In this document: piece by piece, positions 20,777-61,441 of the stretch
Numbering within the stretch: the first letter of the stretch is position 1
How the letters are laid out: each line of letters opens with the position of its first letter
Assembly: GCA_024762795.1 (NCBI GenBank)
Contig: JANTGS010000002.1
Location: forward strand, 17,273 to 81,272
Reading direction: 5' to 3'
DNA from: Flavobacteriaceae bacterium
GTDB taxonomy: Bacteria; Bacteroidota; Bacteroidia; Flavobacteriales; Flavobacteriaceae
Length of the DNA stretch: 64,000 nucleotides
Notes under the pieces: generated by a model
The model's input: only the letters and a program-made list of their open reading frames with translations
Told to the model about the DNA's origin: nothing
The model's database searches: none
Translations under genes and position numbers: made by a program

Positions 20777-20853
20777 GATAATACCGGTTTTTTTATATCA
20801 ACTCGGGATAATCATTTTAAAAGGAATTATTTAATACTAATAAAAAATAAATC

Positions 20854-22761
20854 ATGGCAAAAGTAGAAGTTTATAGTCTGTTCTCAGAATTTGATGTTGA
20901 TCTCTTTAAATTAGGGAAACATTATCGATTGTACGAAAAATTCGGTGCACATCCTGCCAAAGTAAATGGTAAAGAAGGTGTATATTTTTCCGTATGGGCT
21001 CCTTCAGCAAAATCGGTTTCTGTAATTGGGGACTTCAATTTCTGGAATGATAAACAGCATAAACTGAATGTAAGATGGGATGCTTCAGGCATCTGGGAAG
21101 GATTTATTCCCGGAGTTAAGATTGGGATGAGATACAAATTTAAAATGACCTCTAATCATCATGTGGAAACTGAAAAAGCTGATCCTTATGCTTTTTTCAG
21201 CGAGAAACCGCCACATACTGCATCAATTATTGAAAATATAGAAGGTTTTGGCTGGAAAGATTCGAACTGGATGTCATATCGAAAAGATAAAAACGGATTG
21301 GATAAGCCTTATGCTGTATACGAAGTACATCTGGGATCCTGGATGAGAAATCTTGAAGGAGATCAGTATTTATCGTATAATGACTTTGCCGATAAACTGG
21401 TAAAGTATGTCAAAGAGATGAATTTTACCCATGTGGAATTTATGCCGATCATGGAATATCCGTATGACCCTTCATGGGGATATCAGATCACAGGATATTT
21501 TGCCCCAACATCTCGTTTTGGAACACCAAAAGAATTTATGAATCTGATTGATAAACTGCATCAGAATGATATTGGTGTGATTGTTGATTGGGTGCCATCG
21601 CATTTTCCATCTGATGATCATGGTTTAGGATTTTTTGACGGAACTCACCTTTATGAGCATCCGGACCCAAGAAAGGGATATCATCCCGACTGGAAAAGTT
21701 TGATCTTTAATTATGGCCGGAATGAAGTGCGTTCCTTCCTGATCAGTAATGCTTTTTTCTGGCTCGATAAATATCATATTGATGTGTTACGGGTAGATGC
21801 AGTGGCTTCTATGCTGTATCTCGACTATTCGCGTGAGGAAGGGGAATGGGAACCCAATCAATATGGAGGAAGAGAGAATCTGGAGGCTATTTCATTTCTA
21901 AAGGATTTTAATCAGGAAGTATATAAAACCTTTGACGGAATTCAGACCATAGCAGAAGAATCAACGGCCTTTACCGGAGTTACAAAACCGGTTTCTATCG
22001 GAGGGCTCGGATTTGGTATGAAATGGATGATGGGCTGGATGCATGATACACTGGATTATTTTTCTAAAGATCCGATCCATAGGCAATACCACCAGAATGA
22101 CATTACTTTTAGTCTGGCCTATGCCTTTACCGAAAATTTTATGCTCCCCTTATCCCATGATGAAGTAGTTTACGGGAAAAGATCATTGCTGAATAAAATG
22201 CCCGGGGATGAATGGCAGAAATTTGCTAATATGAGGTTGCTTTTCGGGTATATGTTTGCACATCCCGGAACCAAACTTTTATTTATGGGAGGAGAATTCG
22301 GTCAGTCTGCTGAATGGAATTTTTCGCAGAGTCTTGACTGGCACCTACTTCAATATGAACCTCATAAAAAGTTGAGTAAATATGTAAAAGAACTGAATAA
22401 ATTCTACAAAGGACATCCTGCTTTATATGAAAAAGCTTTTTCACCAGATGGTTTTGAATGGGTCAATTTCGGCGATAGCCAGAATTCTGTGATCTCTTTT
22501 ATCCGTAAGGGGCACGATGAAGAAAATGATCTGATCATTGTGTGTAATTTCACTACAGTTCCCAGAGAAAAATACAGGATTGGAATGCCTAAGACGGGTA
22601 CTTTAACTCAGGTGTTTAACAGTGATTTTAAAAAATATTTTGGTAGTGGTGTAAGTAATTCTAAAAAATTATCAATTGAAAAGAAAAGTTGGGACAACAG
22701 AGAATTTTCTGTTGAGATCACACTGCCTCCATTATCTATGATTGCGTTTAAAATTATATAG
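20854..22761 (+). CDS. glgB: 1,4-alpha-glucan branching enzyme
   Basis: VHLGSWMRN, DWVPSHFPSDDHGLGFFDGTHLYEHPDPRKGYHPDW, DVLRVDAVASMLYLDYSRE, LPLSHDEVVYGKRSLLNKMPGD. Confidence 0.96.
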   Translation: MAKVEVYSLFSEFDVDLFKLGKHYRLYEKFGAHPAKVNGKEGVYFSVWAPSAKSVSVIGDFNFWNDKQHKLNVRWDASGIWEGFIPGVKIGMRYKFKMTSNHHVETEKADPYAFFSEKPPHTASIIENIEGFGWKDSNWMSYRKDKNGLDKPYAVYEVHLGSWMRNLEGDQYLSYNDFADKLVKYVKEMNFTHVEFMPIMEYPYDPSWGYQITGYFAPTSRFGTPKEFMNLIDKLHQNDIGVIVDWVPSHFPSDDHGLGFFDGTHLYEHPDPRKGYHPDWKSLIFNYGRNEVRSFLISNAFFWLDKYHIDVLRVDAVASMLYLDYSREEGEWEPNQYGGRENLEAISFLKDFNQEVYKTFDGIQTIAEESTAFTGVTKPVSIGGLGFGMKWMMGWMHDTLDYFSKDPIHRQYHQNDITFSLAYAFTENFMLPLSHDEVVYGKRSLLNKMPGDEWQKFANMRLLFGYMFAHPGTKLLFMGGEFGQSAEWNFSQSLDWHLLQYEPHKKLSKYVKELNKFYKGHPALYEKAFSPDGFEWVNFGDSQNSVISFIRKGHDEENDLIIVCNFTTVPREKYRIGMPKTGTLTQVFNSDFKKYFGSGVSNSKKLSIEKKSWDNREFSVEITLPPLSMIAFKII

Positions 22762-22943
22762 CAATTTTTTTTAGGCTTTTTTGTTTCTTTGTGTTCTTTT
22801 TTAAATGAAATGAACATGAATTCATTAATCATAAATTCCTTACCAGAATAATGATGATTGAATTTAAGAGTTTAGCGATTTTGGATACAGGTATTTTTCA
22901 GCTTATTTTTAAAGCTTAAAATTTTAAACAGATAAGATAACCT

Positions 22944-25346
22944 ATGATTATAAATACAGAAATAGATAAGAAAGGAAATCAGTTTCCCTCCAAAGTAATA
23001 TCTTGTGATAAAGAGGTTGATACTTTTTATTTTAAAACCGAGAATAATGTTACTTTACAACTCACGATTATACGAGGGAGTATTTTGCGTTTCAGGTTTT
23101 CCACAACTTTTAATTTTGAAAAGGATTTTTCTTATGCCATAGATGAAGATGCCAGCAGAGGTTACAATACCTTAGAGTATAAAGAAGAAAAGGATTACTA
23201 CGTTATAGTAACTTCAAATGTGATCTGTCATATTCATAAGGCCGATCTCCGTTCGGAAATTTTTGATGCTGTTGATAAAAAACTGATCTGTGAAGATGAG
23301 TCCGGCTTTCACTGGGAAGAGAATTATGAGAACGGTGGGAATATTGTCAAGATGAGTAAACTGGCCCATGATGCTGAGAGTTATTATGGTATGGGAGATA
23401 AACCTGTAAATGCCAATTTAAGAGGTAAGCGGTTTGAGAACTGGGTAACCGATTCATATGCTTATACAAAGCATACGGATCCTTTATACAAATCTATTCC
23501 TTTTTATACCGGACTTCATAACAATAAGGCTTACGGAATCTTTTTTGATAATTCATTCCGGTCTTTTTTCGACTTTTGTCATGAACGCCGTCAGGTAACA
23601 AGTTTCTGGGCTCAGGGAGGCGAAATGAATTATTATTTTATCTATGGCCCCACCATGAGTGAGGTGGTTTCAAGATATACCAATCTTACAGGTACTCCGG
23701 AACTTCCACCTATGTGGACACTTGGTTTCCATCAGTGTAAATGGAGTTATTACCCTGAATCTAAAGTGCGTGAGATCACTTCAAAATTCCGTGAACTTCA
23801 GATTCCCTGTGACGCGATTTATCTGGATATTGATTATATGGACGGATTCAGATGCTTTACCTGGAATAAAGAGTATTTTCCCGATCCCAAGAAAATGGTT
23901 AGCGATCTTGAAAAGGACGGGTTTAAAACAGTAGCTATAATCGATCCCGGTATCAAGATCGATGAAGATTACGATATTTATCAGCAGGGAATAGAAAATG
24001 ATTATTTCTGTAAAAGAGCAGACGGGCCTTATATGAAAGGAAAAGTATGGCCCGGGGAATGTTATTTCCCTGATTATACCAACCCTAAAGTAAGAAAGTG
24101 GTGGTCGGGTCTTTTTAAAGAACTGATCGATGATATCGGTGTAAAAGGCGTTTGGAATGATATGAATGAGCCGGCAGTGATGGAAGTGCCTAATAAAACT
24201 TTCCCTGATGATGTACGTCATGATTATGATGGCCATTATTGTAGTCATAGAAAAGCTCATAATATATACGGAATGCAGATGGCAAGAGCAACCTATGAAG
24301 GTTTGAAAAAATATTCTTACCCCGAAAGGCCTTTTGTAATTACACGTTCAGCTTATTCCGGTACGCAACGCTATTCTTCAACCTGGACGGGAGACAATGT
24401 GGCCACCTGGGAGCATCTTTGGGTAGCCAATGTTCAGGTACAACGAATGTGTATGTCGGGATATTCCTTTACCGGATCGGATATTGGTGGTTTTGCCGAA
24501 CAGCCTACAGGCGAACTCTATACCAGATGGATACAGTTGGGAGTATTTCATCCTTTTTGCAGAGCTCATTCTTCAGGAGATCACGGTGATCAGGAGCCCT
24601 GGTCGTTTGATGAAGAAGTAATAGGTATTGTTAGAAAATTTATAGAGATAAGATATCAGTTATTGCCTTATTTGTATACAGCCTTCTGGAAATATATACG
24701 GCATGGAGTTCCCATCTTAAAATCACTGGTTATTTATGACCAGGAAGACACACAGACCCACTTCAGATCGGATGAGTTTATTTTTGGTGACAAAATATTG
24801 GTTTGTCCTATACTTGAGCAGAATGCCACAGGAAGAAGAATGTATATTCCAAGAGGGAATTGGTATAATTTCTGGGATGATACGATAATTTCCGGAGGGA
24901 GAGAAACCAGAGTGGAGGCTGATCTGGACAGTATGCCCCTCTTTATTAAAGAAGGAGCTATTATTCCTAAATTCCCTGTGCAGCAATATGTTGGGGAAAA
25001 ACAGATTGATGAGCTTACCCTGGATGTGTATTTTAAAGAAGGTAAAGAAAAAAGTGAGATCTATGAAGACGCTAATGATGGTTATGATTATAATAAGGGA
25101 CGCTATAGTTTACGCAGCTTTGAATTAAACGGGAAAAAGGATAAACTTACCATTCAGCAACATAAATTAGGCACATTTATTACAGCTTATGAAACCTTTA
25201 AAATAAGAATCCACGGATTACCTTTTAAAATTAATAAGATCTATATTGACGGAGAAAAGGCCAATTCAGCTGATGTTAAGGTAAACGGTGTAAATTCAAT
25301 TACTATTACCAAAAATTTCAATAATTTACAAATTGTAGGAGAATAA
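22944..25346 (+). CDS. GH31 alpha-glucosidase
   Basis: PMWTLGFHQCKWSYY, KGVWNDMNEPAVM, ITRSAYSGTQRYSSTWTGDNVATWEHL. Confidence 0.94.
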   Translation: MIINTEIDKKGNQFPSKVISCDKEVDTFYFKTENNVTLQLTIIRGSILRFRFSTTFNFEKDFSYAIDEDASRGYNTLEYKEEKDYYVIVTSNVICHIHKADLRSEIFDAVDKKLICEDESGFHWEENYENGGNIVKMSKLAHDAESYYGMGDKPVNANLRGKRFENWVTDSYAYTKHTDPLYKSIPFYTGLHNNKAYGIFFDNSFRSFFDFCHERRQVTSFWAQGGEMNYYFIYGPTMSEVVSRYTNLTGTPELPPMWTLGFHQCKWSYYPESKVREITSKFRELQIPCDAIYLDIDYMDGFRCFTWNKEYFPDPKKMVSDLEKDGFKTVAIIDPGIKIDEDYDIYQQGIENDYFCKRADGPYMKGKVWPGECYFPDYTNPKVRKWWSGLFKELIDDIGVKGVWNDMNEPAVMEVPNKTFPDDVRHDYDGHYCSHRKAHNIYGMQMARATYEGLKKYSYPERPFVITRSAYSGTQRYSSTWTGDNVATWEHLWVANVQVQRMCMSGYSFTGSDIGGFAEQPTGELYTRWIQLGVFHPFCRAHSSGDHGDQEPWSFDEEVIGIVRKFIEIRYQLLPYLYTAFWKYIRHGVPILKSLVIYDQEDTQTHFRSDEFIFGDKILVCPILEQNATGRRMYIPRGNWYNFWDDTIISGGRETRVEADLDSMPLFIKEGAIIPKFPVQQYVGEKQIDELTLDVYFKEGKEKSEIYEDANDGYDYNKGRYSLRSFELNGKKDKLTIQQHKLGTFITAYETFKIRIHGLPFKINKIYIDGEKANSADVKVNGVNSITITKNFNNLQIVGE

Positions 25347-25484
25347 AGCCAAACCGGTATTTTGTCAGATCAGCAATATGCTAAGGTATTATTAAAAATA
25401 ACTCATCTAAAAGAATCTGTATTAAGAAACTGTTATTTTTATGGCCTTAACAAAAATTGAATTCGATATTTAATAAAATAGTCT

Positions 25485-25492
25485 TATTTTTG
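25485..25492 (+). promoter_or_regulatory. putative -7 element TATTTTTG
   Basis: TAnnTTTG match 29 nt before the phosphorylase ATG. Confidence 0.35.
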
Positions 25493-25520
25493 CCGCTTTA
25501 TTAAATTTAAAAGAAAGACT

Positions 25521-27164
25521 ATGACAAGTAAATACAGCAAATGGTACCATCCGTATAAACCCGCTAAAGAATTTGAAAAGAGAGTAGCTTATTTTAGCAT
25601 GGAGTTTGGTATTCATCAGGCTTTAAAAATATATTCCGGAGGTCTGGGTTTTTTAGCCGGATCACATATGCGATCAGGTTTTGAGTTAAAACAAAATATG
25701 ATCGGTATAGGAATGTTGTGGAAATATGGATATTATGATCAGGGAAGAAATGAAGATCAGACACTTCGTGTAAATTTTATCGAGAAACATTACAATTTTT
25801 TAGAAGATACCGGAATTGAAGTGGAGGTGAAATTACACGACAATCCTGCTGTAAAAGTTAGAGCTTATGTGCTTAAACCGGAGATCTTTGGTACAGTACC
25901 TTTATACTTACTTTCTACAGATGTTGACGGAAATGATTTTCTTTCCAGAACCATCACCGATCATCTTTATGATGCCAATGAGCTGACACGTATTTCTCAA
26001 AGTATCGTTCTGGGAATTGGCGGAGCAAAAGTAGTTGAGGCTCTTGGAGGAGCTAATACCTATCATTTAAATGAAGGCCATGCTTTACCAGCATTTTACT
26101 ATTTACGAGATCAGGGGGTAAGAAAGAATCAAATGGTGTTTACTACACATACTCCGGAAAAGGCAGGTAATGAAGAAAGAGATGCCCGCCACCTAAATCG
26201 TTGTGGTTTCTTTGGCAGAAGGCTTAATGAAGAGGAACTGGCCAAAGAAATGGTAAATGAAGGAATGATAAATTATACCGTCTCTGCCTTAAGAATGGCT
26301 AAAAAAGCTAATGCAGTGTCAAAACTTCACGCCAAGGTGTCTAATGAGATGTGGAAAAATTACGATGGAATCTGTAAGATCATACCGATTACCAATGCTC
26401 AAAATCAGAAATTCTGGCAGGATGAAGAGATCAAAAAGATCTGGAAAAGAAAAAGTGCCAAAGCTTTTAGAGAAAGAAAACTTGAATTAAAGAAAGAACT
26501 TTTTGATGTTGTATTGAATCAAACCGTTAAAATGTTTGATCCCAATGTATTTACAATTGTTTGGGCCAGGAGATTTGCAGGTTATAAAAGAGCTGATCTT
26601 TTACTTTATGATATGGAGCGTTTTGAAAAACTGATCAACAATGAGGAATATCCGGTACAGATTATCTGGGCAGGAAAACCTTATCCTTATGATTTTTATG
26701 CAATAGATATATTCAACCATCTGGTAAATATCAGTAAATATTCTCCAAATCTGGCAGTTCTTGTGGGCTATGAAATAGAACTTTCAAGAAAAATGAAAAC
26801 AGGTTCAGATATCTGGCTGAATACTCCCAGAATTACCCGTGAAGCTTCTGGTACCAGTGGTATGACAGCTGCGATGAATGGTTCAGTGAATGTTTCTATT
26901 AATGACGGCTGGATTCCTGAATTTGCTAAAAATGGGGAGAATAGTTTTATCTTGCCTGAACTGGATCCGAAAATGCCGGTTTGGGAACAGGATAAGATTG
27001 ATGCGGGAAACCTTTATGATCTGCTTGAAAATGAAGTGCTTCCAACCTATTACGACAAACCAAAAAAATGGTCGGAGATCGTTTTTAATGGTATTGATGA
27101 TGTAATACCCGAATTTACCAGTAACCGTATGGCAACTCAGTATTACAAAGAATTATTTAAGTAA
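25521..27164 (+). CDS. glgP: alpha-glucan phosphorylase (short, ~550-aa family)
   Basis: VAYFSMEFGIHQALKIYSGGLGFLAGSH, HLNEGHALPAFYYL, TTHTPEKAGNEERD, RRFAGYKRADLLL, EASGTSGMTAAMNGSVNVSINDGW. Confidence 0.92.
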   Translation: MTSKYSKWYHPYKPAKEFEKRVAYFSMEFGIHQALKIYSGGLGFLAGSHMRSGFELKQNMIGIGMLWKYGYYDQGRNEDQTLRVNFIEKHYNFLEDTGIEVEVKLHDNPAVKVRAYVLKPEIFGTVPLYLLSTDVDGNDFLSRTITDHLYDANELTRISQSIVLGIGGAKVVEALGGANTYHLNEGHALPAFYYLRDQGVRKNQMVFTTHTPEKAGNEERDARHLNRCGFFGRRLNEEELAKEMVNEGMINYTVSALRMAKKANAVSKLHAKVSNEMWKNYDGICKIIPITNAQNQKFWQDEEIKKIWKRKSAKAFRERKLELKKELFDVVLNQTVKMFDPNVFTIVWARRFAGYKRADLLLYDMERFEKLINNEEYPVQIIWAGKPYPYDFYAIDIFNHLVNISKYSPNLAVLVGYEIELSRKMKTGSDIWLNTPRITREASGTSGMTAAMNGSVNVSINDGWIPEFAKNGENSFILPELDPKMPVWEQDKIDAGNLYDLLENEVLPTYYDKPKKWSEIVFNGIDDVIPEFTSNRMATQYYKELFK

Positions 27165-27182
27165 TCGCTTGATAAATAATTG

Positions 27183-27212
27183 AAATAATGCGGGTTTTTA
27201 CCCGCATTATTT
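27183..27212 (+). terminator. stem-loop terminator after phosphorylase
   Basis: aaataatgcgggt-tttt-acccgcattattt. Confidence 0.65.
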
Positions 27213-27347
27213 GTTTATAAAAGAATTGTCCTTATTTTATAATTCTATATAGATTTGCAATGGTTTTGAATCGTTTGGTTTTGTAACTGGGCAGGCTTTT
27301 ATTAAATTTCGATGATAAATTCTGTTTAAACAGAAATAATTTTACAG

Positions 27348-29129
27348 ATGATGAATAAAAAAATAGTGATCTATCAGGTCTTTACCAGGCTTTTCGGTAA
27401 TACAAATACAACCAATAAGCCCTGGGGAACAATAGAGGAGAACGGAGTAGGAAAATTTAACGATTTTACCTCAAAAGCCTTACAGGAAATTAAAGAACTG
27501 GGGGTAACTCATATCTGGTATACCGGTGTTTTACATCATGCTACGGTTACAGATTATACAAAATATGGTATTTCCAATGATCATCCTGATGTGGTAAAAG
27601 GCAGGGCAGGTTCACCTTATGCTGTTAGAGATTACTTTCAGGTTGATCCTGATCTTGCTGAAGATCCTTCTAAAAGGATGGAGGAATTTGAGCAGTTGAT
27701 CGACCGTACACATAAAGCAGGTTTGAAAGTACTGATTGATATTATACCTAATCATGTGGCGAGAAAATATGAAGGCCTTAACAATCCGGAAGGTATTTCT
27801 GACTTCGGTGCTGCTGATGATACAGGGGTAGTTTATCAAAAAGATAATAATTTTTATTATGTGGTCGGAGAAGGGTTTAAAGTACCCGAATGGAGAGAGG
27901 GATATACACCTTTGGGTGGAATAAATGTTCCTGATGACAGAGGAGAATATGTTGAATTTCCTGCTAAATGGACCGGTAACGGATCGCGCAGGGCACAACC
28001 CGATTTTTTCGACTGGTATGAAACGGTAAAGATCAATTATGGGGTAAGTCCTGAAGGGGTGAAAGATTTTGATGAATTACCTGATGATTATGCTCAAAAA
28101 GGTTATGAGGATCACTTTTATTTTTGGAAAGAGAAAGAAATTCCTGACTCATGGAATAAATTCAGAGATATTGCTTCGTTCTGGCTGGATAAAGGAGTTG
28201 ACGGTTTTAGATATGATATGGCAGAAATGGTTCCGGTTGAATTCTGGAGTTTTATAAATTCTTCAATCAAAATAAAAAATCCTGAAGCATTCCTACTAGC
28301 AGAGGTGTATAATCCTGATCTGTATCGCCCTTTTATTTTTCTGGGAAAGATGGATTACCTCTATGATAAAGTTGCTTTCTACGATTCATTGAAACACATT
28401 GTAAAAGGATACGGCTGGACCGATCATATTCCGAAAGTACAGGAAGAAATGGCCGATATTGAACATCAGATGCTTCATTTTTTAGAAAATCATGATGAAC
28501 AACGTTTGCCTTGTGATGATTTTGCCCGCTTTGCAGAAAATGGCAAACCGGCTATGGTGGTGTCGGCCACGATCAGCACTTCGCCTACGATGATCTATTT
28601 CGCACAAGAAGTAGGGGAGCCTGCTCTGGAAAAGGCCGGATTTGGTTCACCTACAAGAAGCTCAATTTTTGATTATATAGGAGTTCCTCATCATCAGCGA
28701 TGGCTGAATGATAAAAAATTTGATGGAGGTCAGTTGTCAGAAAATGAAAGAACTTTACGCAGTTTTTATAAAAGTTTACTGAATTTTACCGTCAATAGTA
28801 GTGCGCTGATGGGGAATTATAAAGAGATCCATTATTACAACCGGGAACATACACAAAACTATAACCACAGGGTTTTCTCTTATGTGCGCTGGAGCGATGA
28901 GGAAAAGCTTATAGTGGTTTCTAATTTTGATATTTCTGAGGTACATGAATTTGAGCTGAAGATTCCGGAAGAGGTCATTCTGGAGTGGGAATTACAGCAG
29001 GGAAATTATAAATTAATTGATCAGTTAAATAATAAATTATCCCATGAGTTACTGGTTGAAGAAGGGAAAGGAAAAATACAAATAACTTTACAAGCTTTGG
29101 AATCGTTTATTTTGCAACTTACAAATTAA
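27348..29129 (+). CDS. GH13 alpha-amylase family protein
   Basis: VLIDIIPNHVAR, GVDGFRYDMAEMVP, LLAEVYNP, FLENHDEQRL catalytic regions. Confidence 0.93.
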   Translation: MMNKKIVIYQVFTRLFGNTNTTNKPWGTIEENGVGKFNDFTSKALQEIKELGVTHIWYTGVLHHATVTDYTKYGISNDHPDVVKGRAGSPYAVRDYFQVDPDLAEDPSKRMEEFEQLIDRTHKAGLKVLIDIIPNHVARKYEGLNNPEGISDFGAADDTGVVYQKDNNFYYVVGEGFKVPEWREGYTPLGGINVPDDRGEYVEFPAKWTGNGSRRAQPDFFDWYETVKINYGVSPEGVKDFDELPDDYAQKGYEDHFYFWKEKEIPDSWNKFRDIASFWLDKGVDGFRYDMAEMVPVEFWSFINSSIKIKNPEAFLLAEVYNPDLYRPFIFLGKMDYLYDKVAFYDSLKHIVKGYGWTDHIPKVQEEMADIEHQMLHFLENHDEQRLPCDDFARFAENGKPAMVVSATISTSPTMIYFAQEVGEPALEKAGFGSPTRSSIFDYIGVPHHQRWLNDKKFDGGQLSENERTLRSFYKSLLNFTVNSSALMGNYKEIHYYNREHTQNYNHRVFSYVRWSDEEKLIVVSNFDISEVHEFELKIPEEVILEWELQQGNYKLIDQLNNKLSHELLVEEGKGKIQITLQALESFILQLTN

Positions 29130-29327: not shown

Positions 29328-31142
29328 ATGTCAAAAACGCATACCTTTCATATTCCTGTAATGGGAATTGGTTTTACGATCGACACTCCGTTAAAGATCT
29401 CTCAATACGGAATCGATTCTGTGATATCGCTGGTGGATGATATCCTAATAGAAAAGATCAGGAAGGTTTATAGTGAAAAGTATGAGATACCTTATAAGGA
29501 GATCTCAGATAAGATTGAAGATTTCAGGGCCAAAAGGATTACCTCTTATCTTAATCTTGTAAATGAAATTACCGAAAGGAAATTTAATGAAGTTAAGAAG
29601 GCAGCGAGAGATAAGAGTGACGGGATTAAAGAATATTTGAGTCTTTTGCCCGATAATGCTTCCTTAAAAAAGGAGTTTAGCAATCTTAAGTCTAAATATT
29701 TTAATTTCGATGATCTTGAAAAACGTTTTAAAAACAGTTTCTCTAAGGGCAGTATAGATGTTAATATCATGACGAAATTAGACCGGGAAAATGTAAAGGA
29801 CGGAAAAGTACTTTCTGCAGAATACAATGATGCTCATGCTGCTTTAAGAGGATTTGCCAACAGTGATCTGAGTTCATCCTTAGTGCTTTCTGCCGGAATG
29901 AATCCAAGGCTTTATGCTTATCTTGAGAATTTTGACGATTTTTATCCTGATTCCCAAGGCAACATAAAAAAGAAGATCGTTTTAAAGGTAAGTGATTACC
30001 GCTCGGCTTTGATCCAGGGAAAATATCTTGCCAAAAAAGGGATCTGGGTATCGGAATACCGTATAGAATCAGGGCTGAACTGCGGAGGCCATGCCTTTGC
30101 TACAGAAGGTTATCTGATGGGGCCTATTCTGGAAGAGTTTAAGATCAATAGAAAGGACCTGGAAAGATCTGTAAATGAGATCTTGGTTCAGGCGTTAAAA
30201 AATAAGAACAGAGAAATTCCGGAAAATGATCTGACCGTTCTGATCACTGCTCAGGGAGGTGTCGGTACCGTTGAAGAACACGAATTTTTGCTGGATCATT
30301 ATCATGTGGATTCGGTAGGCTGGGGTTCCCCTTTCTTACTGGTTCCTGAGGCAACTACCGTGGATGAAGAAACCATACATAAACTGGAAGAGGCACGTGA
30401 AGAGGATCTTTATTTGAGTGATATTTCTCCATTGGGAGTACCTTTTAACAATTTACGCGGAAATACAAAAGATCTGGAAAAACAGAAAAGAATTGATCTT
30501 GGGCGTCCGGGCAGTCCCTGTCCGAAACAATATGTTGCCTTAAATAATGAGTTTACAGAACAAAAGATCTGTACAGCTTCACGGCAATATCAAAGAAATA
30601 AGATCAAAGAACTTGATGAAAATGATCTTTCTGACGAAGAATATAAAAAAGCATACGATAAAATTACAGTTAAATCCTGTATCTGTGTAGGATTGGGAAC
30701 TTCTGCATTGCTAAATAATAATTTAGACACAAAACAGGAAGGATTTGGGATTTCTGTTTGTCCGGGACCTAACATGGCCTATTTTTCTAAAAAACTCAGC
30801 TTAAAAGAAATGGTTGATCATATTTATGGTCGTGCAAAAGTGATCAGTTCAAAAAGGCCAAATATGTTTATAAAAGAATTGGATCTGTATCTTGATTATC
30901 TAAAGAATAAAGTGGAAGAATCTAAAGATTCGATGAATAGAAAACAAGAGAAATATCTGGTAAGTTTTTCAAAGAATTTAGAGGATGGAATCAATTATTA
31001 TGAGGGTCTTTTTTCTAAGGTTAAAGACCGGTTCGATGAAACTAAAGATCAGTTTTACAATGAACTTGAATCTGCAAGGAATACTCTAAATAACATCAGT
31101 CTGCAGATCGAAGATCTGAGAATGCAGACCATAAGAGTTTAA
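29328..31142 (+). CDS. 604-aa protein of unknown function; possible TIM-barrel/Fe-S protein
   Basis: Long ORF after GH13 gene; LNCGGHAFATEG, TAQGGVGTVEEHEFLLDHYHVDSVGWGSPFLLVPE, GSPCPKQY, SCICVGLGTSALL, SVCPGPN; C-terminal coiled-coil-like tail. Confidence 0.85.
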   Translation: MSKTHTFHIPVMGIGFTIDTPLKISQYGIDSVISLVDDILIEKIRKVYSEKYEIPYKEISDKIEDFRAKRITSYLNLVNEITERKFNEVKKAARDKSDGIKEYLSLLPDNASLKKEFSNLKSKYFNFDDLEKRFKNSFSKGSIDVNIMTKLDRENVKDGKVLSAEYNDAHAALRGFANSDLSSSLVLSAGMNPRLYAYLENFDDFYPDSQGNIKKKIVLKVSDYRSALIQGKYLAKKGIWVSEYRIESGLNCGGHAFATEGYLMGPILEEFKINRKDLERSVNEILVQALKNKNREIPENDLTVLITAQGGVGTVEEHEFLLDHYHVDSVGWGSPFLLVPEATTVDEETIHKLEEAREEDLYLSDISPLGVPFNNLRGNTKDLEKQKRIDLGRPGSPCPKQYVALNNEFTEQKICTASRQYQRNKIKELDENDLSDEEYKKAYDKITVKSCICVGLGTSALLNNNLDTKQEGFGISVCPGPNMAYFSKKLSLKEMVDHIYGRAKVISSKRPNMFIKELDLYLDYLKNKVEESKDSMNRKQEKYLVSFSKNLEDGINYYEGLFSKVKDRFDETKDQFYNELESARNTLNNISLQIEDLRMQTIRV

Positions 31143-50643: not shown

Positions 50644-51093
50644 TTATTTCTTTTGAGATAATAAATATAGATATTTTTTACCGTAATCAATAATGGCCTT
50701 CCCCTTGTGAAGGATGTCGGCACCGATGATTCCCTGTACAGGATTAGCATCGTGACTGACCAGAGCGGTATTGATATGATTTAGATCGAACAGTATCAAA
50801 GGAACTTTATCCAGTTTAAACTTTCCGATATTGATCTTATTCTTTTTGGCGATTTGAGTATCGATCTCAGAATTTCCTGCTCCGCTGGCTTTGTGTTCCG
50901 AGGCTTCTGAATTCAGTTTAAAGGTCTCGATATCATCAAATCCAATACAGGAGCCGGAGGCGCCGGTATCCAGTATAAAATTACCTTTTACATCATTGAT
51001 CTTTGCTTTGATCTCAAAATGATTGGTAATGGTCTTCTTTAGTTTTATACGATGATATCCCTTTTGGGTAAGAAATTCTCTCAGATCATCCAT
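50644..51093 (-). CDS. retropepsin-like aspartyl protease domain protein
   Basis: FILDTGASGSCIG catalytic motif; VQGIIGADIL flap/second motif. Confidence 0.85.
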   Translation of the reverse strand: MDDLREFLTQKGYHRIKLKKTITNHFEIKAKINDVKGNFILDTGASGSCIGFDDIETFKLNSEASEHKASGAGNSEIDTQIAKKNKINIGKFKLDKVPLILFDLNHINTALVSHDANPVQGIIGADILHKGKAIIDYGKKYLYLLSQKK

Positions 51094-52298: not shown

Positions 52299-53651
<1,353 letters not shown>

Positions 53652-53675
53652 TCGTTATTACTAAAATATTTTATA

Positions 53676-53705
53676 AAAGGCTGTCTTAAAAGGCAGTCTT
53701 TTTTT
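53676..53705 (+). terminator. stem-loop plus T-run after gdh copy 1
   Basis: aaaggctg-tcttaaaagg-cagtctttttttt (one G-U pair). Confidence 0.55.
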
Positions 53706-53769: not shown

Positions 53770-56700
53770 ATGGCCAAAAAAGAACTCCCGGACCTGAGAA
53801 CTTATAATTTTGAAGAAGTTGCATTTGATAAGCTTATGCAGAAAAGGATCTATAAGGTTTTGATAGTTTGTTCCAACTACGATTATTATATGCTGGAAGA
53901 AGACGGGAGAATTGATGAACTTATCTTTAATGAATATACGGCCCTGAGTTTGAGATATCCCCCCAGCTTTATACATGCTTATTCTGTTAGGAAGGCGTTG
54001 AAAATACTGAGATCAGACAATATAGATCTTGTCATTACCTGGTTGGATATAGGTAATTACAAAGCCTTTGAAACCTCAAAAAGAATCAAAGAGAGTTTTC
54101 CTCATATACCTATTGTGGCTTTGAGTCATTACTCTTCAGAGTTAAGAAAAAAACTGGAGAATGAAGAAGCCAGTGCAATAGATTTTGTTTTTCACTGGAA
54201 TGGAAATATCGATATCTTCTTCGCCATTGTAAAACTGGTTGAAGATCGTATGAATGCTGAGTACGACATCAATAAGATTGGAGTAAAGGCAATTCTACTG
54301 GTTGAAGATTCTTTAAAGTTTTATTCGAGATATTTGCCGCTGATCTATAAAGTAATACTGAAACAAACCGGCGCGCTGATGTCGGAGGGTTTGAACGAAC
54401 ACAGGCGCATGATGGTGATGCGTGGAAGGCCTAAGATCTTGCTGGCCACAACTTATGAAGAAGGAATTGAATTGTTTGAAAAATACAAATCAAATTTACT
54501 CGGTGTCATCTCTGATGTAAGTTATTTCCGACAAGGGAAAAGGGATACTGAAGCGGGATTTCATCTTTTGGAATACGTTAGAAAACATTATCGCTATAAG
54601 CCTTTTCTGGTACAATCTTCCAGTAAGGAGAATGAAAAGAAAGCTCTCGAGCTCAAAGGAAAGTTCCTGCATAAATACTCTGAAACCCTGGGAGATGATA
54701 TTAAGAAATACATAACAAAATATTTTTCATTTGGTCAATTTGAGTTTTGGGATCCGGTTCAGAAAAAGGTGGTAGCCGTTGTTAAGGATCTTAACGGACT
54801 TCAAAAGACCCTGAATATAGTAAGTTCTGATTCAATAGAATATCACGCCAAGAGAGATGATTATTCCAAGTGGTTGAGGTCCAGAGCGCTGTTTCCGTTA
54901 GCCGATCTTTTTAGTAAGGTGGAACATACCGATTTTGATGATGTTGAAGAAATAAGAAAGTTCCTGGTCAATTCGATCAGAGCATACAGAATATTCAGAT
55001 CCAGAGGAGTTATTGCTAAATTCGACAGAAAAAGGTATGATGAATATCTGGGTTTTGCCAGAATTGGCGACGGAGCACTGGGAGGTAAAGGAAGAGGTTT
55101 GGCCTTTATCGATTCGTTTCTGAAAAGGAATAAGTTGTTCAACAAATTTAAAGATGTAAACATTTCTATCCCAAGAACGGTTGTGTTGAGTACCGAGGTT
55201 TTTGACGAATTTATGGAAACCCATGAACTTATCAGAATTGCTGCAAAATCAAATATAGACCGATACAGAGATGATGATGAAGCAATTTTAAACAGTTTTA
55301 TTTCTAAACCTCTGCCTAAATGGGCGATGAAAGATATTCAGGCTTTTCTTAAATTTTCTGATAAACCCATTGCAGTACGTTCTTCAAGTGTATTGGAAGA
55401 TTCACATTATCAACCTTTTGCAGGTGTTTTTGCTACTTACATGATTCCAAATTGTGATAAGAAAAGAATGCTCGATATGGTATCTAACGCGGTTAAGTCG
55501 GTTATGGCCTCTGCTTTTTTCCAGGGAAGTAAAGCTTATATGAAAGCTTCTTCTCATACTATTGAGGAGGATAAAATGGCGGTTATCTTACAGGAAGTTA
55601 CCGGAAAACAATATAAGGATGTGTATTATCCGAATATTTCCGGTGTGGCAAGATCGATCAATTTTTACCCTATCGAAGATGAAAAATCCAATGAGGGAAT
55701 TGTCAATATTGCTATGGGGCTGGGAGAGATCATTGTTGGTGGAGGAACAACTTTACGCTTCTCACCTTATCACCCTAAAAAGATTCTTCAGCTTTCTTCT
55801 CCCGGAACAACACAAAGGGAAACACAGAAATATTTTTATGCCCTCGATATGAATCCTGATAGTTATAAAGTCTCTGTAAATGAATCGGTAAATAAAAAGA
55901 AAATAACCATCAGAAAGGCCAAGGATCATGGTTCATTAAAATTTGTAGCCTCTACCTATGATCTTCAGAATAATGTGATCAGGCCAGGAGTGCTACACGA
56001 TGGTTTCAGGGTGATCACTTTTGATAATATTTTAAAATATGATAGTTTTCCATTGGCAAAGATCCTGCAAAATCTTTTACGCGTGGGGCAACGGGAAATG
56101 AGAAATCCTATAGAAATTGAATTTGCGGTTAATCTCGATGTGCCTAAAGGTCAGCCTAAAGAGTTTAGCTTTCTTCAGATAAGACCTATTGTTGAAACCA
56201 ATTTTGAAACTAATGTTCTCCCCGAGAATTTTGATATGTCGGAAACTATCATTTATTCAGAATCTGCTCTTGGAAATGGAAATTATGAAGGTATCTACGA
56301 TTTTGTCTATGTAAAACCGGATACTTTTAACTCTGAGAATACCAAAGAGATAGCAGTTGCAGTGGAAAAGATTAATAAAGAGTTTCTGGCAAAAGATAAA
56401 AATTATATTCTGGTGGGTCCCGGCAGATGGGGTTCCAGTGATCCTTGGCTCGGAATTCCTGTCATTTGGCCGCAGATCTCTGCTGCAAAGATCATTGTGG
56501 AGGCCGGTTTACATGATTACAGGATAGATCCGAGTCAGGGAACGCATTTCTTCCAGAATTTAACTTCTTTTAAGGTGGGTTATCTTACGATCAATCCTTT
56601 TATCAATGATGGTTATTTTGATCTGGATTATCTCAGCGCTCAAAAAGCGGAATACGAAGATGAATATTTAAGGCATATTTGTTTTAAAGAACCTTTAACC

Positions 56701-56820
56701 ATAGTGATTGAAGGAAAAAAGAACAAAGCGGCTATATTTAAAGAGGGATATGTAATTGGGCGGCCTAAAGAACCGCTCGAAGAAAATATCGATGATCTAC
56801 CGCCTGAAGGATTTATGTAA
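53770..56820 (+). CDS. receiver-like + PEP/pyruvate-binding (ATP-grasp) domain protein, copy 1
   Basis: 1016 aa; KVLIVCSNYDYYMLEEDGR and KAILLVEDSLKFYSRYLPLIY receiver-like starts; GDGALGGKGRGLAFID, IAVRSSSVLEDSHYQPFAGVFATY, YPNISGVARSINFYP PPDK/PEP-synthase N-domain motifs; VGPGRWGSSDPWLGIPV C-terminal motif. Confidence 0.9.
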   Translation: MAKKELPDLRTYNFEEVAFDKLMQKRIYKVLIVCSNYDYYMLEEDGRIDELIFNEYTALSLRYPPSFIHAYSVRKALKILRSDNIDLVITWLDIGNYKAFETSKRIKESFPHIPIVALSHYSSELRKKLENEEASAIDFVFHWNGNIDIFFAIVKLVEDRMNAEYDINKIGVKAILLVEDSLKFYSRYLPLIYKVILKQTGALMSEGLNEHRRMMVMRGRPKILLATTYEEGIELFEKYKSNLLGVISDVSYFRQGKRDTEAGFHLLEYVRKHYRYKPFLVQSSSKENEKKALELKGKFLHKYSETLGDDIKKYITKYFSFGQFEFWDPVQKKVVAVVKDLNGLQKTLNIVSSDSIEYHAKRDDYSKWLRSRALFPLADLFSKVEHTDFDDVEEIRKFLVNSIRAYRIFRSRGVIAKFDRKRYDEYLGFARIGDGALGGKGRGLAFIDSFLKRNKLFNKFKDVNISIPRTVVLSTEVFDEFMETHELIRIAAKSNIDRYRDDDEAILNSFISKPLPKWAMKDIQAFLKFSDKPIAVRSSSVLEDSHYQPFAGVFATYMIPNCDKKRMLDMVSNAVKSVMASAFFQGSKAYMKASSHTIEEDKMAVILQEVTGKQYKDVYYPNISGVARSINFYPIEDEKSNEGIVNIAMGLGEIIVGGGTTLRFSPYHPKKILQLSSPGTTQRETQKYFYALDMNPDSYKVSVNESVNKKKITIRKAKDHGSLKFVASTYDLQNNVIRPGVLHDGFRVITFDNILKYDSFPLAKILQNLLRVGQREMRNPIEIEFAVNLDVPKGQPKEFSFLQIRPIVETNFETNVLPENFDMSETIIYSESALGNGNYEGIYDFVYVKPDTFNSENTKEIAVAVEKINKEFLAKDKNYILVGPGRWGSSDPWLGIPVIWPQISAAKIIVEAGLHDYRIDPSQGTHFFQNLTSFKVGYLTINPFINDGYFDLDYLSAQKAEYEDEYLRHICFKEPLTIVIEGKKNKAAIFKEGYVIGRPKEPLEENIDDLPPEGFM

Positions 56821-56996: not shown

Positions 56997-58334
56997 ATGA
57001 AACCAAGTGAAATCATTAATAACCTGGAGGCTAAGCATCCGGGGGAAAAAGAGTATTTACAGGCTGTTCAGGAAGTTTTAGAATCAATTGATGCTATTTA
57101 CAATGAAAATCCGCAATATAAAACAGCCCGGATCATCGAAAGACTGGTTGAGCCCGACCGTATTCTGACTTTCAGAGTTTCATGGGTTGATGATACCGGT
57201 AACGTACAAGTAAATTTAGGGTATCGTGTTCAGTTTAATAATGCCATAGGCCCATACAAAGGAGGGATTCGTTTTCACCCCAGTGTGAACCTGAGTATTT
57301 TAAAATTCTTAGGCTTTGAACAGATCTTTAAAAATGCTTTAACCACGCTTCCTATGGGAGGTGCCAAGGGAGGTTCCGATTTTAATCCCAAAGGAAAATC
57401 TGATAACGAGATCATGAGATTTTGTCAGGCATTTATGCTGGAGCTTTGGAGAATTATTGGTCCTAACACCGATGTGCCTGCAGGCGATATCGGTACAGGA
57501 GGAAGAGAAATAGGATTTTTATACGGTATGTATAAAAAATTACAACAGGAAAATTCGGGTGTTCTAACCGGAAAAGGTCTGAATTGGGGAGGAAGTCTAA
57601 TCCGTCCTGAAGCAACAGGTTTTGGAGCAACTTATTTTACCGATGAAATGCTCAAGTACAACAAGGATTCGTTTAAAGATAAGATTGTAACCATCTCCGG
57701 ATTTGGTAATGTTGCCTGGGGTGTTGCACTAAAAGTTCTTGAACTTGGTGGTAAAGTAGTTACAATTTCTGGTCCTGACGGTTATATTTATGATGAAGCA
57801 GGTCTGGATGAGGAAAAGATCGAATATTTACTCGAACTTCGGGCTTCAAACAATGATATTGTTTCGCCTTATGCGGAAGAATACCCGGAAGCAAAATTCT
57901 TCCCTGAGAAAAAACCATGGGAAGTACCTTGCGATATTGCCATGCCTTGTGCTATTCAAAACGAACTGGATGGAAGTGATGCTGATCAACTGGTTAAAAA
58001 TGGCGTAAAATATGTGGCTGAGGTTTCAAATATGGGATGTACTCCGGAGGCAATTGAAGTATTCCGTAAAGAGAAAATTCCGTTTGCACCGGGTAAAGCG
58101 GCCAATGCCGGTGGAGTGGCAGTTTCCGGACTGGAGATGTCGCAAAACGCTATGAAACTGAATTGGACAATAGAAGAAGTAGATGAAAAACTGCTCCGTA
58201 TTATGAAATCAATCCATGCCGCCTGTATGAAATTCGGTACAGAGGAAGATGGTTTCGTTAATTACGTTAAAGGGGCTAATATTGCCGGATTTATCAAAGT
58301 AGCCGATGCAATGCTGGATCAGGGAATAGTTTAA
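56997..58334 (+). CDS. gdhA: glutamate dehydrogenase, NAD-type motif (copy 2)
   Basis: [82 protein letters not shown] 56997 preferred to 56949. Confidence 0.95.
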   Translation: MKPSEIINNLEAKHPGEKEYLQAVQEVLESIDAIYNENPQYKTARIIERLVEPDRILTFRVSWVDDTGNVQVNLGYRVQFNNAIGPYKGGIRFHPSVNLSILKFLGFEQIFKNALTTLPMGGAKGGSDFNPKGKSDNEIMRFCQAFMLELWRIIGPNTDVPAGDIGTGGREIGFLYGMYKKLQQENSGVLTGKGLNWGGSLIRPEATGFGATYFTDEMLKYNKDSFKDKIVTISGFGNVAWGVALKVLELGGKVVTISGPDGYIYDEAGLDEEKIEYLLELRASNNDIVSPYAEEYPEAKFFPEKKPWEVPCDIAMPCAIQNELDGSDADQLVKNGVKYVAEVSNMGCTPEAIEVFRKEKIPFAPGKAANAGGVAVSGLEMSQNAMKLNWTIEEVDEKLLRIMKSIHAACMKFGTEEDGFVNYVKGANIAGFIKVADAMLDQGIV

Positions 58335-58354: not shown

Positions 58355-58390
58355 TAAAAAAGTTTGTCTGTTTGGGCAAACTTTTTTTTT
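58355..58390 (+). terminator. stem-loop plus T-run after gdh copy 2
   Basis: aaaaaagtttg-tctgtttggg-caaacttttttttt. Confidence 0.65.
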
Positions 58391-58420: not shown

Positions 58421-61400
58421 ATGAATAGTCAATTGCCCGATCTGAATACCTACGAGTTTAGAGAAGTTTCTTTTAAACATTTGATGCAGAATCGTATTTA
58501 TAATGTTCTGATCATTTGTTCCTTTTACGATTTTTATCTGCTCGAAGAAGACGGAAGAATCGATGAACAGATCTTTGAAGAATATTCGGCCCTGAATCTG
58601 CGTTATCCCCCCAACATTTTACATGCGTTCTCGGCAAATAGTGCCAAAACCATTATGGAAACGGATAATATCGATCTGGTTATTGTTTGGCTGGATACGG
58701 CTCAGAAAGCAGTAAACATTTCTAATGAGATCAAAGCAAATTTCCCTTTTATTCCCATTGTTGCAATCAGCCATTATTCGGATGAACTGCATAAGCTTTT
58801 AGAAAAAAAATATAAGAACAATATAGATTTTGTTTTTCACTGGGATGGCAATGTGAATATTTTTATTGCCATTATCAAACTGGTAGAAGACCGAATGAAT
58901 GCCGAAAAAGACATCGGAATTATTGGTGTTAAAGCTATTTTGCTGGTTGAAGATTCGATTCGTTTCTATTCGAGATATCTACCATTAATTTATAAGATCC
59001 TTTTAAATCAGACGCAGACGTTTATTCAGGATGGTCTCAATGAACACAGAAAGATCATGTCTAAAAGAGGCAGGCCTAAAGTTCTGCTGGCAACAACCTA
59101 TGAAGAAGGGGTTGATCTCTTTCAGAAATATAAAGAGAATCTTTTAGGAGTTATTTCTGATGTTACGTATTTTAAAGAAGGAAAAAAGAACAAGCAGGCT
59201 GGATTTCATTTTTTAGAGTATGTTAGAAAATACGATAAATATTTCCCGGTAATCATTGAATCCTCTGAGGCGAAAAATGAAAAGCGTGCCATTGAACTTC
59301 ACGCTAAATTTTTACATAAGGAATCGGAAACTCTGGGTCTGGATATTAAAAAGTACATCACCAGATATTTTTCTTTTGGCGATTTTGAGTTCTGGGATCC
59401 TGATAAAAAAAAGATCATTAAAAGAGCACACGATCTTAAAAGTTTTCAAAAGGCTTTATCAGAGGTGGCACAAAATTCAATTGTTTATCACTCTAAACGG
59501 AATGATTTCTCAAAATGGTTAAAATCGAGAGCGCTTTTCCCGCTGGCCAATTTATTTGCAAAGATCAATTATGAGGATTTTACGCAGGAAGATCATGTGC
59601 GTGAATTTTTAGTATCTGCTGTAAAAGCTTTTCGTATTTATCGTTCAAGGGGGATCATCGCTAAATTTGAAAAAGAGCAATACGATGAGTATCTTGTGTT
59701 TTCCAGAATCGGAGAGGGAGCCCTAGGAGGAAAAGGAAGGGGTTTGGCTTTTATTGATCTCTTCCTGAAAAGACATAGGATTTCACATAAATTTAAAGAT
59801 ACTATTATTTCCATTCCGAGAACCGTTGTTTTAAGTACTCAGGTTTTTGATGAATTTATGGAGGCAAATGAACTTTGGCCGTATGTGGCAAAGGTAAAGG
59901 ATGATGAGAAGATCTTGAATGAGTTTATCTCAAAACCTCTGCCTGAATGGTTGATAGAAGATATAAAGGTTTTTCTAAGAACTTTAAATACTCCTGTTGC
60001 AATAAGATCATCAAGTGTGCTGGAAGATTCTCTGTTTCAGCCTTTTGCCGGAATTTATTCTACTTTTATGATTCCGAATACTGAGATGGATATCTTTTTG
60101 GATAAAGTGGTTACAGCCATCAAATCGGTAATGGCCTCATCTTTTTATAAAAACAGCAGAGCCTATGTAAAGGCTACTTCTCATTCGATGGAAGAGAGCA
60201 AGATGGCGGTAATTTTACAGGAAGTAATCGGTGCCCAATATGAAGATGTTTATTACCCGAATATCTCCGGTGTAGCCAGATCGATTAATTTTTATCCTAT
60301 AGGAGATGAAAAACGAGAGGAAGGTATTGCCAATATAGCGCTCGGACTGGGGGAAATTATTGTGGGAGGAGGAAGATCTTTGCGTTTTTCACCCTATCAT
60401 CCAAAAAATATACTTCAGCTTACTTCAACCGCAACCGCATTAAAGGAAACCCAGAAATATTTTTACGGGCTCGATATGAATCCGGAGAGTTACCATGTTT
60501 CGATCAATGAAGCGGTCAATAAGAAAAAACTCAATCTACGTCAGGCAAAGCATCATAAATCTTTAAAATTCGTGGCTTCAACCTACGATCTGCAAAACAA
60601 TCGTATTCGTCCGGGTGTTTTTCACGAGGGGCCTAGAGTGATTACCTTTGAGAATATTTTAAGATACGAATTCTTTCCTTTGGCAGAGATCCTTCAGGAG
60701 TTGTTAAAAATAGGTCAGGCTGAGATCAGTCATCCCATAGAGATGGAATTTGCCGTAAAACTTGATGTTCCCGCCGGAGAATCCAAGATCTTTAGCTTCC
60801 TGCAGATCAGGCCAATTGTTGAGTATAATGACAATATTGATGATCTTATCCCTGAAGAGGTCAATTTAAAAGATACGGTTATTTTTGCTGAGACGGCCAT
60901 GGGAAATGGCAGTTATGATAATATAAGAGATATTATTTATGTTAAACCCGAAGCATTTAATGCTGCGAAAACTGTTGAAATTGCTGAAACAATTGATCAG
61001 TTGAATGAAAAACTTGCAAAAGAGGATAAGAATTATATACTTGTAGGTCCCGGGCGATGGGGTTCCAGTGACCGGTGGCTGGGAATTCCGGTGAACTGGT
61101 CCATGGTATCATCAGCAAAGATTATTGTAGAATCGGGACTTGATGATTTTATAATTGATCCGAGTCAGGGAACACATTTTTTTCAAAATATTACTTCTTT
61201 TAAAGTAGGTTACCTTACCATCAATCCGCATAGTAACGATGGTTATTTTGATGTGAATTATCTCAACGAAATGGAAGCGATTTATGAAGATGAATTTATT
61301 CGTCATGTCAGATTCGAACAGCCTATGCTTATTGTGATCGACGGGAAGAATAACAGAGCTGTAGTATATAAGGAAGGCTATGTGATTCCTAATGCTAATG

Positions 61401-61441
61401 ATATCAACGTGGATGAAATTCCGCCAAGCGGTTTTTTTTGA
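58421..61441 (+). CDS. receiver-like + PEP/pyruvate-binding (ATP-grasp) domain protein, copy 2
   Basis: Co-linear with 53770-56820 over its whole length: KAILLVEDSIRFYSRYLPLIYK, GRPKVLLATTYEEG, GEGALGGKGRGLAFID, AIRSSSVLEDSLFQPFAG, VGPGRWGSSDRWLGIPV. ATG 58421 preferred to 58364. Confidence 0.9.
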   Translation: MNSQLPDLNTYEFREVSFKHLMQNRIYNVLIICSFYDFYLLEEDGRIDEQIFEEYSALNLRYPPNILHAFSANSAKTIMETDNIDLVIVWLDTAQKAVNISNEIKANFPFIPIVAISHYSDELHKLLEKKYKNNIDFVFHWDGNVNIFIAIIKLVEDRMNAEKDIGIIGVKAILLVEDSIRFYSRYLPLIYKILLNQTQTFIQDGLNEHRKIMSKRGRPKVLLATTYEEGVDLFQKYKENLLGVISDVTYFKEGKKNKQAGFHFLEYVRKYDKYFPVIIESSEAKNEKRAIELHAKFLHKESETLGLDIKKYITRYFSFGDFEFWDPDKKKIIKRAHDLKSFQKALSEVAQNSIVYHSKRNDFSKWLKSRALFPLANLFAKINYEDFTQEDHVREFLVSAVKAFRIYRSRGIIAKFEKEQYDEYLVFSRIGEGALGGKGRGLAFIDLFLKRHRISHKFKDTIISIPRTVVLSTQVFDEFMEANELWPYVAKVKDDEKILNEFISKPLPEWLIEDIKVFLRTLNTPVAIRSSSVLEDSLFQPFAGIYSTFMIPNTEMDIFLDKVVTAIKSVMASSFYKNSRAYVKATSHSMEESKMAVILQEVIGAQYEDVYYPNISGVARSINFYPIGDEKREEGIANIALGLGEIIVGGGRSLRFSPYHPKNILQLTSTATALKETQKYFYGLDMNPESYHVSINEAVNKKKLNLRQAKHHKSLKFVASTYDLQNNRIRPGVFHEGPRVITFENILRYEFFPLAEILQELLKIGQAEISHPIEMEFAVKLDVPAGESKIFSFLQIRPIVEYNDNIDDLIPEEVNLKDTVIFAETAMGNGSYDNIRDIIYVKPEAFNAAKTVEIAETIDQLNEKLAKEDKNYILVGPGRWGSSDRWLGIPVNWSMVSSAKIIVESGLDDFIIDPSQGTHFFQNITSFKVGYLTINPHSNDGYFDVNYLNEMEAIYEDEFIRHVRFEQPMLIVIDGKNNRAVVYKEGYVIPNANDINVDEIPPSGFF

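Follow-up and report, generated by a model that had tools for sequence, protein, structure and literature searches.

A PPDK-type ATP-grasp protein family with exchangeable signal inputs and strong genomic linkage to glutamate dehydrogenase in Bacteroidota

Introduction

A Flavobacteriaceae bacterium (assembly GCA_024762795.1) encodes a protein in which receiver-like regions are joined to a nucleotide-binding domain of the PPDK type, and the locus raises the question of what such a protein does. The stretch of DNA analyzed here, called the window, comprises 64,000 nucleotides of contig JANTGS010000002.1 (positions 17,273 to 81,272). A sequence-only reading of it had pointed to the open reading frame at 53770–56820 (+ strand) and proposed a kinase- or ligase-like function under a signaling input, with glutamate dehydrogenase (GDH) as a possible target. 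The frame and all the motifs quoted in that reading are present in the sequence. The gene starts with ATG and encodes a REC-REC-ATP-grasp-C-terminal-domain protein of 1016 amino acids, here termed K1, as identified from the ORF, Pfam, a structural model and Foldseek.

A duplicated GDH–K unit

Within the window, K1 belongs to a cluster in the order GDH1-K1-GDH2-K2, with all genes on the + strand. GDH1 (52308–53651, 447 aa) is an NADP-type glutamate dehydrogenase that scored 773 bits with NCBIfam PRK09414 (cut-off 536) and matched both the N- and C-terminal ELFV families of Pfam. GDH2 (56997–58334, 445 aa) is a PRK14030-type glutamate dehydrogenase (NCBIfam, 833 bits, cut-off 743), with its start taken at the ATG at 56997 in a frame open from 56949. 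K2 (58421–61441, 1006 aa; PPDK_N E 5e-40), paralogous to K1, has an identical domain layout, and its start was taken at the ATG at 58421, the frame being open from 58364. The two K proteins share 64% identity over 1012 aa and the two dehydrogenases 66%; K2 and the second GDH form a duplicated unit, which the earlier reading had overlooked. Outside the window, this genome encodes one further ELFV-family dehydrogenase (G000:C50:2268-2942, L134), its third and a more distant one, and no K gene was found nearby.

Terminator-like hairpins followed by a T run were located on the + strand in the GDH1/K1 gap (53675–53702, 12-pair stem) and in the GDH2/K2 gap (58356–58387, 14-pair stem) by a consensus scan, in which the number of terminator-like sites was no higher than in shuffled sequences. 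Since a hairpin stands between each GDH gene and the K gene that follows it, co-transcription of GDH and K is in doubt, and expression of K may depend on read-through or on a promoter of its own. No Rfam element reached threshold within the window.

Elsewhere in the window, a small retropepsin-like aspartyl protease frame (50644–51093, − strand; Asp_protease_2 E 4e-14, DTGAS motif) was observed between two housekeeping genes. A glucan cluster (18836–29129, + strand) includes GlgE-like, branching-enzyme-like, GH31, phosphorylase and alpha-amylase-family proteins; it is adjoined by a 604-aa frame (29328–31142, + strand) in which Pfam found nothing at E <= 1e-5.

Domain architecture of K1

The domains of K1 are arranged as receiver 1, receiver 2, a DUF5752-like linker, an ATP-grasp domain and a C-terminal domain. 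This architecture was seen again in 80 related loci and is therefore not a product of chance. An AlphaFold2 model built from a 63-sequence alignment (pLDDT 84.5, pTM 0.79) was compared with the PDB by Foldseek. The best matches were rifampin phosphotransferase (RPH, 5hv1, E 7e-12) and HpeI (9goj, E 5e-10), followed by the tandem receivers of PleD, VicR and further response regulators. The fold assignment of the earlier reading was thereby corroborated.

The two CheY-like regions proposed earlier differ in their acceptor sites. Receiver 2 (residues ~172–320; 54283–54729, + strand), recognized by the tandem-receiver fold match and residue counts, carries the complete acceptor set of E179/D180, D249 (codon 54514–54516), S283/S284 and K302. 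E179, D249, S283, S284 and K302 are conserved in 63/63 homologues and D180 in 60/63. With its fold, acidic pair, phospho-Asp, Ser/Thr and Lys all in place, it is a response regulator receiver. Receiver 1 (residues ~27–165; 53848–54264, + strand), recognized from Response_reg in the isolated piece (E 4e-6), the model and residue counts, is degenerate, with no phospho-acceptor Asp where strand 3 ends. The position is occupied by Trp91 in K1, and by Trp in 38 and Met in 24 of the 63 homologues, among which D93 is unconserved. In full-length K1, Pfam Response_reg matched residues 70–140 below the cut-off (E 2.5e-5); in relatives L069, L075 and L081 it was above the cut-off over two stretches each. 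K is no canonical histidine kinase, and neither HisKA nor HATPase_c was matched by Pfam in K1, K2 or their relatives.

A DUF5752-like linker domain (residues 326–429; 54745–55056, + strand; 24.3 bits in the isolated piece against a Pfam cut-off of 23) leads to the PPDK-type ATP-grasp domain (residues 436–815; 55075–56214, + strand). The PPDK-type nucleotide-binding region of the earlier reading was borne out here by PPDK_N (E 1.1e-42), as expected for the ATP-grasp of a PEP synthase or PPDK, and by the structural match to the ATP-grasp domains of RPH and HpeI. K440, R537, E782, E784 and Q803 are invariant in 63/63 homologues; judged by where they fall in the motifs and by what is generally known of PPDK, they are taken to be the counterparts of its catalytic residues.

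The resemblance to PEP synthase ends at this domain. The swivelling phosphohistidine domain PF00391 (GG..SHAA) was not matched by Pfam in K1, K2 or relatives, nor was a PEP/pyruvate TIM barrel in K1, where just ~185 aa follow the ATP-grasp; both absences had been claimed from the sequence, and they stand. Of the NCBIfam PEP synthase and PPDK-like models, just the initial part aligned with K1, at scores far under the cut-offs. Searching this genome with PF00391 gave as sole match a separate, complete true PPDK, and K is therefore not the PPDK of this genome. The view that K1 is no PEP synthase or PPDK, but has signaling inputs and an intact ATP-grasp active site, is borne out.

An unclassified C-terminal domain

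What had been described as a C-terminal segment is present, but it is actually a distinct conserved domain (residues ~816–996; 56215–56757, + strand). It is ~185 aa long and is recognized by the invariant GR.G...D and S.G[ST]HFF signatures (GRWGS..D in K1), the latter including His926 (codon 56545–56547). Across the most distant relatives, N869, G885, R886, G888, D891, G895, E911, S922, G924, H926, F927, F928 and Y938 are invariant. Modeled alone, the domain gave a pLDDT of 89.5 and a pTM of 0.88. It belongs to no Pfam family: a scan of 62 members returned scattered chance-level hits only, PF00391 not among them. A Foldseek search of the PDB gave nothing at E <= 0.001, the best hits being unrelated glycosidases (E 0.07).

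Among the 297 Bacteroidota genomes searched, the domain is present in 49. Its copies lie in frames of 575–1105 aa, the lengths of K proteins, with the exception of a 366-aa frame in G228, which a longer search revealed as a broken frame. The domain is an obligate companion of the K-type ATP-grasp, found only in K-type proteins across these genomes.

The possibility that it is a diverged swivelling phosphohistidine domain was considered. The idea came from the full-length model, in which strands and helices around H926 seemed to follow a comparable order and H926 marks the beginning of a helix; it was unsupported by Pfam (62 members) and by Foldseek (isolated model). A local hhalign comparison with PF00391 gave 0.2%, with a method that is insensitive at these alignment depths: the control of EI-type against PPDK-type domains reached 97.7%, yet the K and PPDK ATP-grasp domains, homologous by Pfam, reached just 1%. 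His926 is considered a candidate phosphoacceptor.

Linkage of K to GDH and exchange of input modules

In the sampled Bacteroidota genomes, 76/98 K-family genes were located within 1.5 kb of an ELFV (glutamate-dehydrogenase-family) gene, which strongly favors the GDH link suggested from the sequence. By our own arithmetic, with about two dehydrogenase genes per ~3.8 Mb genome, chance would place ~0.4 of the 98 K genes near a GDH. Adjacency was observed for 52/64 full-length, 14/17 short and 10/17 distant K genes; one short K, in G311, was scored as non-adjacent with its genome absent from the dehydrogenase search. The adjacency persists despite altered gene order and strand. Different GDH clades sort with different K subtypes, and the linkage holds in three subtypes with different input domains. 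Relatives in named records come from Lutibacter, Polaribacter, Aureibaculum, Gillisia, many Bacteroidales and one Spirochaetaceae contig. GDH mostly adjoins K in these records where the flank is long enough, and several Bacteroidales K loci have no GDH within the available flank. The K family is uncharacterized and patchy in its distribution, and its genomic link to GDH is very strong.

K is absent from 45 other Flavobacteriaceae genomes of the sample, and 29/29 GDHs examined there are of the GDH1 type; GDH2-type enzymes were seen in the sampled members of this family only together with K. K-linked GDH1s intermingle in the tree with unlinked GDH1s, and the other partners of K belong to different GDH clades. 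The history looks like that of a mobile K–GDH2 unit that joined a native GDH1.

The ATP-grasp and C-terminal core is constant throughout the family and its inputs vary: REC-REC, a sensor-like stretch with REC-REC, a sensor-like stretch without receivers, or none. The short K consists of the ATP-grasp and C-terminal domains only, with no input module. A 1155-aa Bacteroidales paralogue carries an extra N-terminal stretch of ~165 aa ahead of its receivers, in which no Pfam family was matched. We call it sensor-like after its sequence (ERLKELACIN...WQYPE...), which resembles stretches of histidine kinases. In the distant K, which lacks receivers, the N-terminus is a comparable stretch, and a nucleotidyltransferase often stands at the C-terminus. 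Such an exchange of input modules around a fixed core is typical of signaling proteins more than of housekeeping enzymes.

Two further arrangements were observed. The 1155-aa paralogue lies directly upstream of K in L081 (4481-7945), L053, L074 and L082. A compact cassette of GDH, short K and long K recurs in L113, L114 and L127, where the GDH clade is separate from GDH1 and GDH2; in L127 the last domain of the long K is a nucleotidyltransferase (NTP_transf_2).

Proposed function and rival explanations

We propose, with about an even chance of being right, that K1 and K2 act as phosphotransferases of PPDK descent, regulated by a signal and dedicated to the adjacent glutamate dehydrogenases. 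The phosphotransferase part is suggested by the invariance of the ATP-grasp residues and by a fold nearest to the phosphotransferases RPH and HpeI, and the signaling part by the swapping of inputs while the core stays. Dedication to GDH is suggested by the 76/98 linkage, the sorting of clades with subtypes and the occurrence of GDH2-type enzymes only with K in Flavobacteriaceae; it is weakened by the 22/98 K genes without a GDH within 1.5 kb. We infer the action of K on GDH from gene neighborhood, and the family probably controls the making versus the burning of glutamate in these bacteria.

In the proposed mechanism, an upstream histidine kinase would phosphorylate Asp249 of receiver 2, and phospho-Asp249 would change the contact between the ATP-grasp and the C-terminal domain. 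With ATP as donor, the ATP-grasp could then phosphorylate the C-terminal domain, possibly on His926, and the charged domain would modify or otherwise control GDH2 or GDH1. This control would set the rate or direction of the reaction, glutamate synthesis against oxidation. A role of the C-terminal domain as phosphate carrier is weakened by the lack of any phosphohistidine match in Pfam or Foldseek. In a more specific form, which we put forward tentatively, K would be an undescribed class of signal-controlled protein kinase in which the ATP-grasp and a new catalytic domain (His926) covalently modify GDH, gated by a receiver domain. A literature search returned no description of the K architecture or of its GDH link, which is not proof of absence.

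A rather unlikely explanation is that K is a metabolic enzyme that phosphorylates or ligates a small-molecule substrate or product of GDH (glutamate, 2-oxoglutarate or another keto acid), the receivers serving just as an on/off switch. The characterized ATP-grasp enzymes of nearest fold, RPH and HpeHI, do use small molecules (PMC4844700, PMC12167813), and a gene pair with a dehydrogenase would suit a pathway too. However, swapped signaling inputs and two K and two GDH genes in a single cluster suit regulation better, K has no recognizable substrate domain such as the PEP barrel, and GDH by itself is a full pathway step.

The strong genomic linkage, taken alone, would also fit a partner without catalytic activity that senses ATP, binds GDH and acts on it as an allosteric regulator. 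We consider this quite unlikely, as all examined ATP-grasp catalytic positions are invariant in 63/63 homologues, which is unexpected for a pseudoenzyme. Less probable again is an internal phosphorelay, in which the ATP-grasp would phosphorylate His926 and the phosphate would pass to Asp249 in receiver 2 of the same molecule; K would then be a self-contained His-Asp system, with the output state controlling GDH by binding. The complete acceptor set of receiver 2 and an H926 that is invariant wherever its domain occurs do stand in one protein, but the short and distant subtypes, without receivers, still carry the H926 motif; the core chemistry would therefore be independent of receivers. That K is itself a PEP synthase or PPDK, as the PPDK_N match might suggest, can hardly be entertained, with PF00391 and the PEP barrel both absent, the NCBIfam PEP synthase models far under cut-off and confined to the N-terminal part, and a separate complete PPDK in the same genome.

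GDH is a meeting point of carbon and nitrogen metabolism, and an ATP-grasp family with interchangeable signal inputs follows its genes across bacterial families and GDH clades. If K1 and K2 are phosphotransferases dedicated to GDH, two-component receivers would gain an unusual output, PPDK-derived regulatory kinases, a group now emerging, would gain new members, and a function would be assigned to a C-terminal domain without a Pfam family or a significant match among solved structures. Should K act as a GDH kinase, a central nitrogen branch point in many Bacteroidota would come under the control of a novel enzyme unrelated to Hanks-type kinases, AceK and histidine kinases.

Comparison with known systems

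RPH (5hv1) and HpeHI (HpeI, 9goj) share with K the ATP-grasp fold and are the best PDB matches of the K1 model; unlike K, they have their own swivel His domain and small-molecule substrate domain, neither of which is recognizable in K. PPDK and PEP synthase likewise share the PPDK_N ATP-grasp with its catalytic residues and differ in carrying PF00391 and the PEP barrel. A PPDK-like gene clustered with a response regulator in Desulfovibrio (PMC4001038) was also considered and set aside as a different case, since its normal mobile domain is present.

PleD-like tandem-receiver proteins resemble K in having two receiver folds, one of which in K has a full acceptor site, but the output of PleD is GGDEF and that of K an ATP-grasp unit. 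The PknG-GarA/OdhI system consists of a Ser/Thr kinase and a small binding protein and is unrelated to ATP-grasp. It resembles the role proposed for K in that a kinase relays a signal to enzymes of glutamate and 2-oxoglutarate (PMC5448819, PMC9769921).

VadK (Rv1127c) of Mycobacterium is the closest experimental precedent for K. A truncated form of PPDK, it is a histidine autokinase (His422) that co-precipitates with PrpD and PrpC, enzymes of the methylcitrate cycle, and tunes the flux through them (PMC13400623). Judged by gene number (rv1127c versus rv1130 and rv1131), its gene lies close to prpD/prpC. VadK differs from K in keeping the PPDK His domain (His422) and in being described as ATP-binding and His domains only (PMC13400623); in K there are tandem receivers, a C-terminal domain that looks unrelated and a GDH neighbor, and no PPDK His domain is recognizable. 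The two are alike in a PPDK-type ATP-grasp, the lack of a PEP barrel and a gene placed near metabolic enzymes, which K would control in the case of GDH. As an autokinase that tunes enzymes encoded close by, VadK lends support to the reading of K as a PPDK-derived regulator.
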